From: Prescottella soli
Lineage (GTDB): Bacteria > Actinomycetota > Actinomycetes > Mycobacteriales > Mycobacteriaceae
Length of the DNA stretch: 64,000 nt
Direction of reading: 5' to 3'
Assembly: GCF_040024445.1 (NCBI RefSeq)
Contig: NZ_CP157276.1
Location: 5,270,001 to 5,334,000 of the forward strand
Part shown: piece after piece, positions 18,343 to 23,895 of the stretch
Numbering within the stretch: position 1 is the first letter of the stretch
Layout: every line of letters starts with the position of its first letter
The notes under the pieces: model-generated
Seen by the model: the letters and a program-made list of their open reading frames with translations, nothing else
Databases searched by the model: none
Told to the model about the DNA's origin: nothing
Made by a program: the position numbers and the translations under genes

Positions 18343-19158
18343 TCAGGCCGCGGGCGTAGTGTCCGATTCGGCGCTGTGCGAGCCCGCCGATCGCAGCAGC
18401 AGTGGGGCGCCGACGACGCCCATCGCCACCAATCCGTAGACCGCCGAATACCGCAGTTCGGGCGCGTCCAGGAACACCGCGTGTGCGAGGGCGGACCCGA
18501 GCCACGTCCACAGGAACAGCGCGATCGGCACGGCGTCGCGCGCGAGAGATGTCGGCGCGGGACGAACGCGACGGTCGAGCAGGTCGACGAGGATCGTCAT
18601 CACCGCGGCCACGACCACCCAGCCCGCGTAGTTGGTCAACGGGATGTGTTCGATCCCGGCCAGTCCGGCGTCGGTGACGCACCACCGCCATTGCCCGTCC
18701 GCGACCATCTGGGGATCGAGGTAGAGGTCCCAGCCGACGACGCCGACGGTCGCGAGGGCGATGCGCGGCAATCTGCTGCGGGTGATCAGCGACGCGGCGC
18801 ACCACACCGGGTAGAAGCCGGCCGTCCACGCGAGTGGCACCACCAGCGGCACGTGCGCGATCGCCGGCCCAAGCCGTCCGGACGCGTATTCGTAGCAGCC
18901 GTACGGGATTCCCGTCGCGACCCCGACGATCTCCGAGGCCAGTCCCATCCCCGCGGTGGCCAGCACCATGCCCGACGCCCACCGACCGCCCCGGACAGCG
19001 ACGGCATGCACGATCGACGCGGCGGCCAGCAGCGCGACCACCGCGACGGTGACGAGGTCCCGGGACCGACCGTCGACGAGGGGATACGCGATCTGCGCCG
19101 CGATCGCCGTCGCCGCGATGATCGCGGACGCTCGCACGAGCGGGGGCGCGGTCCTCAT
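18343..19158 (-). CDS. cruF: Carotenoid 1'-hydroxylase CruF (DUF422)
   Basis: A polytopic membrane protein of 271 residues with about seven hydrophobic helices. Signature elements of the CruF/CrtC2 (DUF422) family are visible: SEIVGVATGIPYGCYEYAS, RLGPAIAHVPLVVPLAW, and WDLYLDPQMV with the conserved aspartates. The family adds water across the psi-end double bond of gamma-carotene or lycopene to give the 1'-hydroxy carotenoid. It overlaps the crtO stop by four bases (ATGA). The large open frame that continues upstream is antisense-like and not part of the gene. Confidence 0.9.
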   Translation of the reverse strand: MRTAPPLVRASAIIAATAIAAQIAYPLVDGRSRDLVTVAVVALLAAASIVHAVAVRGGRWASGMVLATAGMGLASEIVGVATGIPYGCYEYASGRLGPAIAHVPLVVPLAWTAGFYPVWCAASLITRSRLPRIALATVGVVGWDLYLDPQMVADGQWRWCVTDAGLAGIEHIPLTNYAGWVVVAAVMTILVDLLDRRVRPAPTSLARDAVPIALFLWTWLGSALAHAVFLDAPELRYSAVYGLVAMGVVGAPLLLRSAGSHSAESDTTPAA

Positions 19159-20738
19159 CGGAAGGTCTTGCGCAGCACCCGACGTAGTCGTCCGCCGCGG
19201 GCGTCCGCGAGCGCGACCCGGGCCGCGCTCCGCCCGCTCGATCCCGACACCCCGCCGCCCGGGTGCGTCGATGCGCCCGTCAGGTACAGGGTGTCGGCGT
19301 TCGGGACGCGGTGCGCGCCCAGTTCCGGAATCGGCCGCCACATGAACATCTGGTCCAGCGACATCTCCACGTGCATCACGTTGCCACCGATCAGGCCCAT
19401 CTCGCGTTCGATGTCGGCTGGTGTCTGCACGAATCGGTGGCGGACGCTGTCGGCGAACCCGGGCGCCAGGGCGTCGACGTTCGCGACGATGCGGTCGGCC
19501 TCGCTCTCGCCGAGATCGGCCCAGCTGCGGCCGCCGGAGAGTGCGTACGGGTGCCACTGCGACCACAACGTCACCTGGTGCTCGCCGGCGGGGGAGATCG
19601 TGGGGTCGATGCCGCTGAAGCTCATCGCGAGCACCGCCGGTTCCGGCGGCAACTCCCCGGCGAGCGCGGCGCCGTGTGCTGCCCGGAGTTGTGCGCGGTC
19701 GGAGACGAGCAGTTGCAGCCCCGACGTCGCAGTAGCCCCGGTGGGTGCGCTCGGGTACGACGGCAACGCGTCGGTGCCCAGCCGCAGCACCATCCCGATG
19801 CCCGGGCCGACACGGATCCGCCGACGCCACCCGGCGAGCGTGTCCCGGTCGTATCCGCCGCGTTCGAGTAGGTCGAGCGTCGTCAGCACGTGACAGCCGG
19901 CGACGATGGCGCGGGCCCGGACGCGACGGCCGGACTCCGTGACGACGGTCCACCCGTCGTCGTCGCGGCGGAGCTCGGTGACACCGTCTCCGAGCGTGAC
20001 AGTGCCGCCGTCGGACTCGAGACGCGAGGCCAGCGCGGCCGTGAGCGCGCCGCTGCCGCCGACCGCGCGACCCGGCGGAAGCGTGTGCATCAGTGCCGCG
20101 AACCCGACCATGGGGGCGGTACCCGGCTCGGACATCGGCGGACCCGACTGGGCGCCGAACCACGCGAGGGCGGCCTTGAGCGGTTCGCTGTCGAAGTACT
20201 CGTCGAGCAGCGCGTCGCCGGTCGTGAGGAACTCCCGCGAGATCGCGCTGCCCCCGCCCGACGTGTCCAGCCCCCAGAACGAGCGCAGCAGGTGTCCGCC
20301 GGTCGGCGGCGCCGAGAAGGCGCGCATGACGCGCTCGGTGCGCGGGCCCCACGTCTGCACGAAGCGCCGGTACGCTTCCGCGTCGGCGGCGCCGCAGGAT
20401 TCCTCGATGGACCGGCACGTGCGATCCAGGCTGCGGTGGAACACGATGCCCGGTCGGCCCGAACCGGCGGGGGCGGGCGCGAACGCCCACGGATCGCAGT
20501 CGATGTAGCGCAGCCCGTGGGCGGCGAGATCGAGTTCCTCGATGATCCCGGTGTGGCGGATCATGATGTGCGCAGACGATCCTCGGTCCACCCGGTGCCC
20601 GGGGAACCGCTCGACCGTCGAGACCGCGCCACCGAGCACGGTGTCGCGTTCGAGAACCTCCACCGACCAACCCGCGCGAGCGAGGTAACAGGCCGACACG
20701 AGGGCGTTGTGGCCCGAGCCGACGACGATCGCGTCCAT
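19155..20738 (-). CDS. crtO: CrtO-type carotenoid 4-ketolase
   Basis: A 527-residue FAD-dependent oxidoreductase related to CrtI. It begins with the dinucleotide motif IVVGSGHNALVSACYLARAG and ends with the conserved block YLTGASTHPGGGVSGSSGR. Internal stretches such as VDRGSSAHIMIRH and GIGMVLRLGTDALPSYP match, from memory, the Rhodococcus CrtO ketolase that introduces the 4-oxo group on a beta ring. It starts at ATG 20738, one base into the stop of the upstream GNAT gene, and overlaps cruF downstream. Ring ketolation requires a cyclised substrate, so a lycopene cyclase must be encoded elsewhere. Confidence 0.9.
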   Translation of the reverse strand: MDAIVVGSGHNALVSACYLARAGWSVEVLERDTVLGGAVSTVERFPGHRVDRGSSAHIMIRHTGIIEELDLAAHGLRYIDCDPWAFAPAPAGSGRPGIVFHRSLDRTCRSIEESCGAADAEAYRRFVQTWGPRTERVMRAFSAPPTGGHLLRSFWGLDTSGGGSAISREFLTTGDALLDEYFDSEPLKAALAWFGAQSGPPMSEPGTAPMVGFAALMHTLPPGRAVGGSGALTAALASRLESDGGTVTLGDGVTELRRDDDGWTVVTESGRRVRARAIVAGCHVLTTLDLLERGGYDRDTLAGWRRRIRVGPGIGMVLRLGTDALPSYPSAPTGATATSGLQLLVSDRAQLRAAHGAALAGELPPEPAVLAMSFSGIDPTISPAGEHQVTLWSQWHPYALSGGRSWADLGESEADRIVANVDALAPGFADSVRHRFVQTPADIEREMGLIGGNVMHVEMSLDQMFMWRPIPELGAHRVPNADTLYLTGASTHPGGGVSGSSGRSAARVALADARGGRLRRVLRKTFR

Positions 20739-21361
20739 CACAGCGGCAACCCCCGGCCCAGCACGGCGAACGGGCGGCGGTCGCCCGCGAAGGTGAAGTG
20801 GCGGACGACGTCCCGGAAACCGGTGCGCCGATACAGGCGCCACGCCCGATTGTTCTCCTGGTCCACCTCGGGGGTGGACAGGAGCACGCCCCGTTCCGGC
20901 CGGTCTTCGAGAAGCCGCCGCAGGAGCTGTTCGCCGAGCCGGTGCCCCTGTGCACTCGGGTGGACGTGCAGTTCGGTCAGCTCGAAGTAGTTGCCCAGGA
21001 CGTACTCGATCTGGTCGCGGCTCCAGCCCGTCGCCTGCATGCCGTGCCGTACCTGCTGCTGCCACCACTGGTCGGGGGAGCCGCGGTAGCCGTACGCGAT
21101 CGCGACGAGGGGAGCCGGCCGGTCCGGATGCGTCGGATCGGCCTGGACAGCGCCCACCGCGCGCCAGCCGGGCCGTGCCGTGTGCTCGGTCCACATCGGC
21201 GCGCGGTGGTACTCGGTCCCGCGGGGATAGCCCATCGCGGCCACGTAGATCGCCAGCGCCTCCGGCAGTCGAGCGCGCATCTCGGACACCGACAGATCGA
21301 CCACGACCGGCGTGCCGGGAGTCGTGCCGGGGCTCTCGCCGGGGCTGCCGGTGCTGTCCAT
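20738..21361 (-). CDS. GNAT acetyltransferase (Rv2170-like)
   Basis: A 207-residue GCN5-related N-acetyltransferase. The acetyl-CoA binding region is ELHVHPSAQGHRLGEQLLRRLL, with the C-terminal LLSTPEVDQENNRAWRLYRRTGF block usual for GNATs. It is orthologous by sequence and position to Rv2170, reported to acetylate isocitrate dehydrogenase in M. tuberculosis. I choose ATG 21361; GTG 21373 with AGAGAGAAGAGG before it is an alternative, and the extension to 21430 runs into the promoter region. It heads operon B, and its TGA overlaps the crtO ATG by one base, so it is translated with the ketolase. Confidence 0.85.
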   Translation of the reverse strand: MDSTGSPGESPGTTPGTPVVVDLSVSEMRARLPEALAIYVAAMGYPRGTEYHRAPMWTEHTARPGWRAVGAVQADPTHPDRPAPLVAIAYGYRGSPDQWWQQQVRHGMQATGWSRDQIEYVLGNYFELTELHVHPSAQGHRLGEQLLRRLLEDRPERGVLLSTPEVDQENNRAWRLYRRTGFRDVVRHFTFAGDRRPFAVLGRGLPL

Positions 21362-21422
21362 GCTCGGGCTCACCCTCTTCTCTCTTGACGACGTGTCGGT
21401 GGGGCCAGCTATATTGAATAGG

Positions 21423-21438
21423 TCGAACACGTGTTCGA
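21423..21438. promoter_or_regulatory. Perfect LexA/SOS box
   Basis: TCGAACACGTGTTCGA is a perfect 16-bp palindrome and an exact match to the mycobacterial LexA consensus TCGAAC-N4-GTTCGA. It lies in the divergent gap, 62 bases from the GNAT start and 88 bases from the HEPN start. For the plus strand it sits inside the 17-base spacer between TTGAAT (21414-21419) and GATATC (21437-21442), a good place for repression of the HEPN gene. Control of operon B is also possible. Confidence 0.8.
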
Positions 21439-21526
21439 TATCGGCGATCCGGTGATGTTCGAGGGAAGCGAATCATCGCCGGATCGCCGGCCCTGAACTT
21501 CGGAGCGGTGGGAGGTGCTCGGAGTC

Positions 21527-22138
21527 GTGTCGGAAGTCGAGTCGGTCATACCGGTCGCATCGAGGATGCGGCCGCGGACGTCGTCGGGAATGTCGGGGGG
21601 CGCGGTCGGATGCGGATCCTCCGACTGGCCACCGGTGTCGATACAGGCGGTGACATTGCTCCGGCGTGCAGACCGTCTGTTGTCGGAGGCGGCGGGCGCG
21701 GGGGAGTCCGCGGAGCGCTTCCGTTGCGCCTATGTCGCGGCCCTCCGGGGCGCCGCGGCTGTCCTCGCCGCGGCGGACGGGAAGGCGCGCGCCGCGTCGC
21801 GACGGCCGCACTCCCGAAGTGCGTGGGTGCTCATGGCGCGCGCGGCCCCGGAGTTCGCGGCATGGGCCGACTACTTCGCCGAGCACTCGGCCTTGCGTGC
21901 GTCGATCGAGGCCGGCGTCACGCGGGCGATCGCGGACGTCGATGCCGACGGGTTCTACGGAGCGGCGGGGCGGTTCCTCACTGAGGTGGAGGATTTCCTG
22001 GCGGAGGTGGGCCGAAAAGACGGTGATCGAGGTATCTTGGCACCGCGTTCGGTGGGTGATTCCGGACACGTTCGTGGAGTGGCGGGTCGCGGCGCCCCAG
22101 ATCGTCATCGATTCGTCGGCAACTCGTCGATGGAGTAG
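21527..22138 (+). CDS. SAV_6107-type HEPN domain protein
   Basis: A 203-residue protein whose middle part (about residues 38-160) is an all-helical HEPN-like domain of the SAV_6107 group. Markers are TLLRRADRLLSEA, AERFRCAYVAALRGAAAVLA, the basic stretch SRRPHSRSAWVLMARAAPEFAAWADYFA and a C-terminal helix GRFLTEVEDFLAEV. HEPN proteins are often RNases or RNA-binding stress effectors, but a clear catalytic R-x4-6-H motif is not evident here. GTG 21527 with GGAGG eleven bases upstream is preferred over GTG 21515. The last ~35 residues are low-complexity and may be non-ancestral. The perfect SOS box at 21423-21438 suggests DNA-damage induction. Confidence 0.72.
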   Translation: MSEVESVIPVASRMRPRTSSGMSGGAVGCGSSDWPPVSIQAVTLLRRADRLLSEAAGAGESAERFRCAYVAALRGAAAVLAAADGKARAASRRPHSRSAWVLMARAAPEFAAWADYFAEHSALRASIEAGVTRAIADVDADGFYGAAGRFLTEVEDFLAEVGRKDGDRGILAPRSVGDSGHVRGVAGRGAPDRHRFVGNSSME

Positions 22139-22250: not shown

Positions 22251-22679
22251 GTGCCACTCTCCGAGCACGAGCAGCGCATGCTCGACCAGATCGAGAGCGC
22301 GCTCTACGCCGAGGATCCCAAGTTCGCGTCCACTGTGAGGGGCGGGCGAATGCGTGCCCCCTCCGGTAAGCGTCGGTTGCAGGCGGTGGCCCTCTTCGTT
22401 TTGGGTCTCGTTCTCCTCGTCGTGGGCGTGGCTGTGAATGTGAGGTTGGGCGAATTCCCGATCATCAGTCTGATCGGATTCGTCGTGATGTTCGGTGCCG
22501 GAATCCTCTTTCTCCTCGGCGGGGGAAAGAGCCATCTGGCGGCGGTTCCCGACGGGGACGGCTCTCCGGGCGCGTCGGGCGGATCGCATCCGCGTAAGTC
22601 CCATGGCGGTAAGAAGTCGGGTGGCGGCTTCTCTTCCCGCATGGAAGATCGATTCCGTCGGAGATTCGATCAGGAGTAG
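22251..22679 (+). CDS. DUF3040 membrane protein (Rv2169c-like)
   Basis: A 142-residue protein with the DUF3040 start PLSEHEQRMLDQIESALYAEDPKFA, two adjacent hydrophobic helices (AVALFVLGLVLLVVGVAVNV and IISLIGFVVMFGAGILFLLGG) and a basic, Gly/Ser-rich tail. It matches Rv2169c, located upstream of mraZ in mycobacteria. GTG 22251 is preferred because GGGGGAGG precedes it at normal spacing and the family N-terminus begins there. The 112-base gap before it contains an inverted repeat, GGTAAC/GTTACC (22177-22182, 22192-22197). Function is unknown. An intrinsic terminator follows at 22699. Confidence 0.87.
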   Translation: MPLSEHEQRMLDQIESALYAEDPKFASTVRGGRMRAPSGKRRLQAVALFVLGLVLLVVGVAVNVRLGEFPIISLIGFVVMFGAGILFLLGGGKSHLAAVPDGDGSPGASGGSHPRKSHGGKKSGGGFSSRMEDRFRRRFDQE

Positions 22680-23189: not shown

Positions 23190-23621
23190 ATGTTTCTCGG
23201 TACCTACACGCCGAAGCTCGACGACAAAGGGCGGCTCACGTTGCCCGCGAAGTTCCGGGACGCGTTGGCGGGAGGGTTGATGGTCACGAAAGGGCAGGAC
23301 CACAGCCTTGCGGTGTATCCCCGTGAGGAGTTCACCGCACTCGCGCGTCGTGCAGCAGCGGCCTCCCGCAGCAACCCGCAGGCACGTGCGTTCGTGCGCG
23401 GGTTGGCGTCGGGAACCGACGAGCAGCACCCCGATGCCCAGGGGCGGATCACGCTCTCCGCGGACCATCGCCGCTATGCGGGACTGTCCAAGGACTGCGT
23501 CGTGATCGGATCGGTCGACTTCCTCGAGATCTGGGACGCCCGAGCTTGGGAGTCCTACCTCGCGGAGCACGAAGAAAGCTACTCACAAGCCAGAGACGAG
23601 GCGCTCGAGGGGATCTTCTAG
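23190..23621 (+). CDS. mraZ: Transcriptional regulator MraZ
   Basis: A 143-residue protein with two SpoVT/AbrB-like swapped-hairpin domains. The first is [24 protein letters not shown], and the second repeats the D-x-x-GR pattern in [20 protein letters not shown]. MraZ forms ring-shaped oligomers, binds tandem TGG repeats and regulates the dcw cluster. Length equals the mycobacterial protein. ATG 23190 is preceded by GGTGGGAGG; the frame upstream is non-coding leader. The triple box at 23064-23089 is its probable own operator. The gap to rsmH is 274 bases and contains a tandem repeat. Confidence 0.95.
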
Positions 23622-23663
23622 CCCACCGACGCCGCGAGTGCCGCGAGGCCTCTGCCCGAGTGT

Positions 23664-23733
23664 GACCCTGACGCACTTCCCCAGCGCCAGGTTCACCACC
23701 GGGACCCTGACGCTCTTCCCCAGCGCCAGGTTC
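23664..23733 (+). repeat. 31-bp tandem direct repeat between mraZ and rsmH
   Basis: Copy one is 23664-23694 and copy two 23703-23733, offset by 39 bases and identical at 30 of 31 positions. The unit begins GACCCTGACGC and ends CCAGCGCCAGGTTC. It lies in non-coding sequence inside the dcw cluster. Confidence 0.85.
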
Positions 23734-23895
23734 CTCGATCGGACAGGGACCTCGAGGCATTCGCTCTCCCCGGAGAAGTGACGTTCGCGAGTTTCGTTGC
23801 AGGACAGACCAGCTGCCGACGATTTCGCCAACTCACACCTCCGCCACCCGAACAACGCACACCCGCAGAGTTATCGAGCAGGAGCCGGAGGAATC

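Follow-up and report, generated by a model that had tools for sequence, protein, structure and literature searches.

The palindrome at positions 21423 to 21438 of the window (the whole stretch of 64,000 nucleotides of Prescottella soli DNA that was analyzed) is likely to be the LexA operator of the HEPN_SAV_6107 gene that follows it. On the sequence evidence, this gene would be an ancient member of the SOS response, and its product would probably serve as an accessory of damage tolerance. The observation of an SOS box at this place was confirmed and is broader than the preliminary description of the DNA had supposed.

SOS box and predicted promoter of the HEPN gene

The consensus of the actinobacterial LexA (SOS) operator is TCGAACN4GTTCGA, the form also supplied with the preliminary description, which had claimed a perfect palindromic LexA box at 21423 to 21438. 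The claim was confirmed, since TCGAACACGTGTTCGA is a perfect palindrome and, read on the plus strand, matches the consensus exactly. A scan of the window allowing up to three mismatches returned two sites against 0.49 expected, of which TCGAACACGTGTTCGA was the exact one. The genome (5.48 Mb in a single contig) was found to contain four exact sites and none of a reversed control pattern; with no more than one mismatch allowed, there were 85 sites, compared with 12 for the control pattern. Ten stretches around box-like sites in this genome served as a comparison set. Near or exact boxes were also found before lexA (two boxes), recA, ruvC, and dnaE2, the family identities of which were confirmed by family searches. 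The dnaE2 gene lies elsewhere in the genome behind a box of its own, and this site has a similar TTGAC...box layout. The genome encodes both LexA and RecA, each with its own boxes, and the palindrome in the window resembles other LexA operators of Actinobacteria in sequence, palindromic symmetry, and promoter position. It differs from them in its target, which is a HEPN_SAV_6107 gene and no classical repair gene. Two further SOS-like boxes with one mismatch each were observed 35 bases apart at genome positions 679846 to 679896 (L227, 2047 to 2097), somewhat like the lexA pair.

The exact operator lies at a predicted promoter, following a probable -35 element TTGACG (21385 to 21390, plus strand), a spacer of 19 bases, and a probable -10 element TATATT (21410 to 21415, plus strand). 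TTGAC was present in 14/14 Prescottella genomes, as was TATATT at the same offset. Because both elements are conserved upstream of the box, transcription would be expected to start near the box's first base, a classical arrangement for a repressor site. Across Prescottella, conservation covers the segment TTGAC...TATATTGAATA(G/T)G ahead of the box and the box itself apart from its four central positions, which vary, as do the bases immediately 3' of the box. The preliminary description had placed the box in the spacer of a different plus-strand promoter, TTGAAT-GATATC. This promoter was rejected since GATATC was found in 4 of the 14 Prescottella genomes and is not conserved, and it was dropped in favor of the TTGAC and TATATT elements upstream of the box.

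It was also considered whether the palindrome could have arisen by chance or could serve a different regulator. Such half-sites are common in the genome, as the 85 sites found when one mismatch is allowed show, and of the four exact sites, two (genome positions 53623 and 5250162; L224 and L226) seem to be located within an open frame or at its end and not in promoters. However, the place of the box before HEPN is conserved across 37 families with controls near zero, its four middle bases change freely, and the same motif precedes lexA, recA, ruvC, and dnaE2 in the same genome. A chance or unrelated site is therefore scarcely credible.

The gene downstream of the box (21527 to 22138, plus strand) had been described as a SAV_6107-type HEPN gene, and this identification held. 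Its product matches PF18726, the HEPN-M (SAV_6107) family of the HEPN superfamily, at 100.7 bits, above the curated gathering cut-off of 27.2, with an E value of 7.1e-29 over positions 1 to 98 of 98. The start codon is probably the GTG at 21527 and not the alternative GTG at 21515, because several relatives carry ATG at the former place. The C-terminal tail (window 22000 to 22138) was unconserved, and in two Prescottella genomes (G003 and G009) the match was split into two pieces. The next gene on the plus strand toward mraZ belongs to the DUF3040 (SCO2097) family (22251 to 22679; PF11239, NF058603); its frame is open from 22221, and 22251 is its presumed start. It is followed by the flanking gene mraZ (23190 to 23621, plus strand; PF02381), which is the first gene of the division cluster, and then by rsmH on the same strand. 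An mraW RNA (RF01746) was detected between mraZ and rsmH at 23630 to 23772 (plus strand) with 50.3 bits against a cut-off of 50. On the minus strand, a divergent GNAT acetyltransferase gene (20738 to 21361; PF00583 and others) has its ATG 61 bases from the box, and beyond it lies a crtO-like carotenoid gene (19155 to 20735) whose best NCBIfam match, NF045689, is below the cut-off and which Pfam assigns to the amine oxidoreductases. Both are flanking genes; the GNAT gene was not judged the main target of the box, nor was the crtO-like gene judged part of the SOS unit.

Conservation of the box with the HEPN gene

The HEPN gene was found in 14/14 Prescottella genomes, 239/298 genomes of the order set, 270/301 genomes of the family set, 80/81 genomes of genus g7 (probably Corynebacterium), and 171/246 sampled genomes of the class. 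The preliminary description had named conservation of the box in relatives, upstream of the HEPN ortholog, as a check, and the result was positive: an exact box was present upstream of HEPN in all 14 Prescottella genomes, and a box with at most one mismatch was present in 73 of 79 sampled loci representing 37 families. In a separate set of 73 loci (14 from the genus, 29 from the order, and 30 from the family searches, with at least six genomes counted twice), no locus needed more than two mismatches for its best site in the 700 bases preceding HEPN, and a control palindrome never reached fewer than three. The 79-locus set, covering 37 families and 72 genera, consisted of 60 newly fetched stretches and 19 of 20 earlier stretches, all oriented; the loci were hand-picked from among matches listed by score, mostly one or two per genus, with low-scoring genera under-represented. 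Within 1.2 kb upstream of HEPN, 61 of these hand-picked loci had an exact box, 12 had one mismatch, two had two, three had three, and one had four. The six loci lacking a box with at most one mismatch were L258, L290, L205, L218, L220, and L221. In the downstream control, such a box was found in 0/79 loci, and 60 shuffled palindromes used as a further control reached at best 1/79 loci.

At the level of the class, 15 of 30 loci had a box with at most one mismatch, and 14 of the remainder came from genus g116 (probably Streptomyces); one stretch of this set, L158, starts at a contig end, and the region upstream of HEPN is absent from it. None of the 14 sampled g116 loci had a box with at most one mismatch, and eight had a CCGAAC-type site with two mismatches. 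In seven probable Streptomyces loci (L147, L156, L160, L164, L166, L168, and L171), the block TTGAACTGACTGGTCAGTGCAAAA was observed, followed by a weak CCGAAC-type SOS-like site, about 280 to 330 bases before HEPN. The 30 probable Corynebacterium loci comprised 11 with at most one mismatch, 11 with two, and eight with three or four; since the control palindrome reached two mismatches in 3 of these 30 loci, the weak corynebacterial sites are near background. By sequence, an SOS box commonly precedes the HEPN gene in this class, though there are exceptions, and this conservation strongly supports the predicted SOS control of the gene that the preliminary description had put forward.

The accompanying statement that no SOS control had been described was wrong for the likely ortholog in Corynebacterium glutamicum, cg2381. 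In the accessible part of a study of ciprofloxacin treatment, cg2381 is a "conserved hypothetical" gene of the LexA regulon with an M value of 3.86, second to divS (5.38) in the table of unknown genes, and mraZ (cg2378) has an M value of -1.13 (PMC5055667). The accessible parts of two other papers describe cg2380 as a putative membrane protein (PMC5711897) and place an RNA between cg2378 and cg2380 (PMC4046766). In the corynebacterial loci in which mraZ was found (L218, L220, and L221), the gene order was HEPN, DUF3040, mraZ, and a control search for the HEPN family gave a match in C. glutamicum. Because this match exists and the position beside cg2380 and mraZ fits, cg2381 is very probably the HEPN gene, an identity that is based on position and not on its own sequence. 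Like the HEPN gene of the window, cg2381 is the second gene before mraZ, and it is LexA controlled according to the accessible report; the difference is that corynebacterial boxes are often weaker than the box in the window. Since cg2381 was reported there as LexA regulated and ciprofloxacin induced, SOS control of the HEPN gene is not wholly new. It was in effect reported earlier, with the HEPN domain unnamed in the accessible text. Of two fast-growing evolved lines, one has a frameshift in the adjoining cg2380 and the other a stop, according to the accessible part of the source (PMC5711897).

Genus g2 (probably Mycobacterium) was the only one of 31 genera in the family search without a HEPN match. 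DUF3040 was found in 31/31 g2 genomes searched, and the g2 loci had GNAT divergent upstream in 30/30 and mraZ downstream of DUF3040 in 30/30. None of these 30 loci contained a HEPN match. The 1.4 kb preceding DUF3040 likewise contained no box with fewer than two mismatches in any of them, and the closest site in the interval from GNAT to DUF3040 differed from the consensus at three or more positions in 30/30. Since g2 keeps these genes without HEPN or box, it is HEPN that the box accompanies; it is not tied to GNAT, DUF3040, or the pigment genes. The alternative raised in the preliminary description, SOS control of the pigment operon, is not supported by this comparison, and the pigment operon was rejected as the main target.

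A broader form of this alternative, in which the box is a LexA operator of both divergent genes and damage control of the GNAT and pigment genes is its main or an added effect, could draw on the distance of 61 bases between the box and the GNAT start codon and on the presence of a divergent GNAT gene in 13/13 loci of the window's family and 22/66 loci outside it. Yet GNAT is kept without a box in the 30 g2 loci, about 720 bases separate the box from the GNAT match in L216, where the box is still placed before DUF6504-HEPN, and the conserved promoter is oriented toward HEPN, so that control of both genes appears highly unlikely. A similarly low probability is given to the proposal that SOS control is aimed at DUF3040, co-transcribed with HEPN, with damage altering wall growth. 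DUF3040 does follow HEPN in 13/13 loci of the window's family and in 18/66 outside it (in L269 on the other strand), and the accessible literature describes SCO2097 as part of an MreB complex, but g2 has DUF3040 without box or HEPN (31/31 genomes with DUF3040; 30/30 loci without the box), and 48/66 loci outside the window's family have no DUF3040 downstream within the stretch read.

Polymerase neighbors and the R-x4-H signature

The stretches around the 79 loci reach about 4.5 kb downstream of HEPN, and counts of neighboring genes are therefore lower bounds. Outside the window's family, at least 40 of the 66 loci had a gene for a DnaE- or Y-family polymerase downstream on the same strand; a DnaE-type polymerase lay directly downstream in at least 23 and a Y-family polymerase downstream in at least 24. 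The other 26 of the 66 had no polymerase gene in the stretch read. A DUF6504 match was found upstream in at least 26 of the 66. At least one HEPN locus with a downstream polymerase gene was present in 29/37 families. The names DnaE, DinB, ImuA', DnaE2, and DUF6504 rest on example loci scanned with NCBIfam and Pfam, four loci in the case of DUF6504. The HEPN-linked DnaE scored below the cut-offs of both DnaE and DnaE2 and was 31 to 34% identical to DnaE2. In 4 of the 79 loci (L208, L259, L268, and L276), HEPN was followed by matches to ImuA', ImuB, and DnaE2, all downstream of a box that deviates from the consensus in no more than one base. NCBIfam verified ImuA' in L208 and L276, with scores of 180 and 178 bits, and DnaE2 in L276, with 969 bits. 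These four loci resemble the LexA-controlled imuA'-imuB-dnaE2 mutagenesis cassette. In three loci of family f46 (L287, L293, and L212), a DnaE-family gene was observed upstream of the SOS box and HEPN and not downstream.

The window locus differs from this cassette in having no polymerase, HEPN being followed by DUF3040 and mraZ. Within the stretch read, a polymerase gene was found in 0/13 loci of the window's family; GNAT and DUF3040 were present in 13/13, and mraZ was seen in 12/13 (not in L219). The occurrence of three polymerase architectures with one and the same type of SOS box points to a functional link, as context and not as proof. The HEPN protein may aid translesion synthesis or damage tolerance, a proposal drawn from gene context to which we assign about an even chance. 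In a survey of Y-family polymerases there was no mention of HEPN, and a search of the literature on SAV_6107/HEPN, DUF6504/PF18726, and LexA with translesion in Actinobacteria found no link of HEPN_SAV_6107 to translesion synthesis.

The preliminary description had favored a stress RNase and a division checkpoint. In the accessible part of a survey of HEPN proteins, SAV_6107 has the entry "No" under "Conservation of Rx4-6H," and the residue after Arg in active HEPN domains is typically N, D, or H (PMC3710099). In our alignment, an R-x4-H pair, possibly the catalytic one, was found at one place in 48 of 80 proteins, and 33 of the 35 families other than f1 and f14 contributed at least one such row. 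Because the pair recurs at one place, an ancestral RNase is possible despite the "No" in the accessible table. The window protein has R64..Y69, with Tyr in place of the His of the R-x4-6-H signature that characterizes catalytic HEPN RNases, and in this it departs from most of the family that it otherwise matches. Tyr was also found at the His place in 13/13 further f1 rows, seven of which keep the Arg, and in 14/15 f14 rows. The residue after Arg in the HEPN_SAV_6107 alignment was mostly Tyr or Phe. The fold predicted for HEPN with a six-row alignment as input had a mean pLDDT of 44.6, too low for a fold search. No polymerase was seen in 27/27 Tyr rows, compared with a polymerase in 39/51 His rows and in one Gln row. 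As one or two changes on the tree suffice for this pattern, the change from His to Tyr and the absence of a polymerase amount to about one event and are not independent evidence. The HEPN protein of the window's clade probably lacks RNase activity.

If DNA damage induced the HEPN protein to act as an RNase and thereby arrest growth or division, the protein could be a checkpoint placed before the division cluster. SOS inhibitors of cell division of the DivS or SulA type act by blocking septation once induced. The HEPN family match would fit such a role, as would the R-x4-H pair in the 48 aligned proteins and the arrangement in the window's family, in which DUF3040 follows in all 13 sampled loci and mraZ in 12. 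We nevertheless consider the checkpoint unlikely. Tyr replaces His in the window protein and in nearly all of its f1 and f14 counterparts, and the residue after Arg is usually Tyr or Phe and not the polar residue usual in active HEPN domains according to the accessible survey text. Outside the window's family, the gene often stands beside translesion polymerases. Furthermore, in the accessible C. glutamicum data, mraZ falls while cg2381 rises, and the division cluster is therefore not induced by read-through in that species. Both claims are accordingly weak for the window protein, that of a stress RNase because of the R..Y pair and the published "No," and that of a checkpoint because of the polymerase neighbors and the opposite responses of mraZ and cg2381.

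The leader hairpin and the proposed SOS unit

A leader RNA hairpin with the loop AGGGAAG (21462 to 21468) was predicted at 21441 to 21490 on the plus strand, the fold z-score for 21422 to 21535 being -4.44. An RGGGAAG loop within a stem was found in 60/193 leaders with a box, a count that pools overlapping sets with some genomes included twice, versus 8/852 control windows; the reversed loop was found in a stem in none of the leaders. In the same scan, the hairpin lay on the opposite strand in 12 leaders, and a g2 locus, L174, scored as well. In an alignment of 23 sequences, 17 of 18 pairs had changed on both sides and the covariation score was 0.863, compared with at most 0.214 when slid; because the sequences were hand-chosen from loci with the loop motif, a good stem, and few bulges, the covariation count leans toward structure.

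Searching the same genome with model R1 gave one match with an E value below 0.05, located at the HEPN leader (E value of 1.1e-4; 150 of 2697 first-look candidates were scored). In Prescottella, the model found the HEPN leader in 12/14 genomes, with five weaker matches elsewhere in four of these. With stricter filters it matched one place each in 12/121 genomes of the order, eight of which were matched to the HEPN place and the other four not. Of the 79 loci, 11 that had not been used to train the model gave a match between box and HEPN with an E value below 0.05, and in L205 matches were found elsewhere than in this interval. The best match in 31 g2 loci had an E value of 0.12. Rfam gave no match at the hairpin, either in the window (E value up to 5) or in eight other loci (E value up to 1). 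The mraW RNA (RF01746) is likewise a structured leader in the same gene cluster, but the HEPN leader differs from it in that it forms one long hairpin, has an RGGGAAG loop, and matches no Rfam family in the stretches searched. A simple terminator is unlikely, as no U run follows the hairpin in the window sequence. Possible roles are self-control by HEPN, control of message stability, or control of translation, and we suggest that the hairpin may tune HEPN expression. The leader hairpin follows the box in some lineages, in a patchy manner. In leaders of other families (L148, L150, L157, L162, L170, and L172), a different motif, approximately CTCGACCC, was observed after the SOS box, apparently in hairpins, and several f16 leaders contain CTTCCC, the reverse complement of the GGGAAG loop.

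In the SOS response, DNA damage leads to RecA-driven cleavage of LexA. From the position of the box and this mechanism, LexA bound across the transcription start would shut the HEPN promoter, which would open on LexA cleavage after damage, and HEPN would then be made, with or without DUF3040. The unit appears to be an old one in actinomycetes, consisting of an SOS box, in some lineages a hairpin leader, and then HEPN, which often seems to share an operon with DUF6504, a polymerase of the DnaE type, DinB, or the ImuA'-ImuB-DnaE2 set. In Prescottella, this unit would be reduced to the box, the leader, and HEPN, with DUF3040 and mraZ as neighbors. A LexA-controlled HEPN gene with a role in damage tolerance is more likely than an RNase checkpoint or than control directed at the pigment genes or at DUF3040. 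More tentatively, HEPN_SAV_6107 could be a core SOS mutagenesis factor and a partner of DUF6504 and the three polymerase sets, possibly binding RNA or, where R-x4-H is kept, cutting it, with its own RGGGAAG leader as the target; the window's family, probably Mycobacteriaceae, would then have lost the His and the polymerase neighbors and kept the SOS switch. The link of HEPN_SAV_6107 to translesion operons and the covarying leader hairpin are new with respect to the literature searched.

Damage-induced mutation drives adaptation in Actinobacteria. The present data suggest that the list of parts for this mutagenesis (ImuA', ImuB, and DnaE2) may be incomplete, and they make the HEPN protein, which is encoded in 171 of the 246 sampled class genomes, usually behind an SOS box and often beside damage-copying polymerases, a candidate for one of the absent components. 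The structured leader is a candidate for a second layer of control over HEPN.
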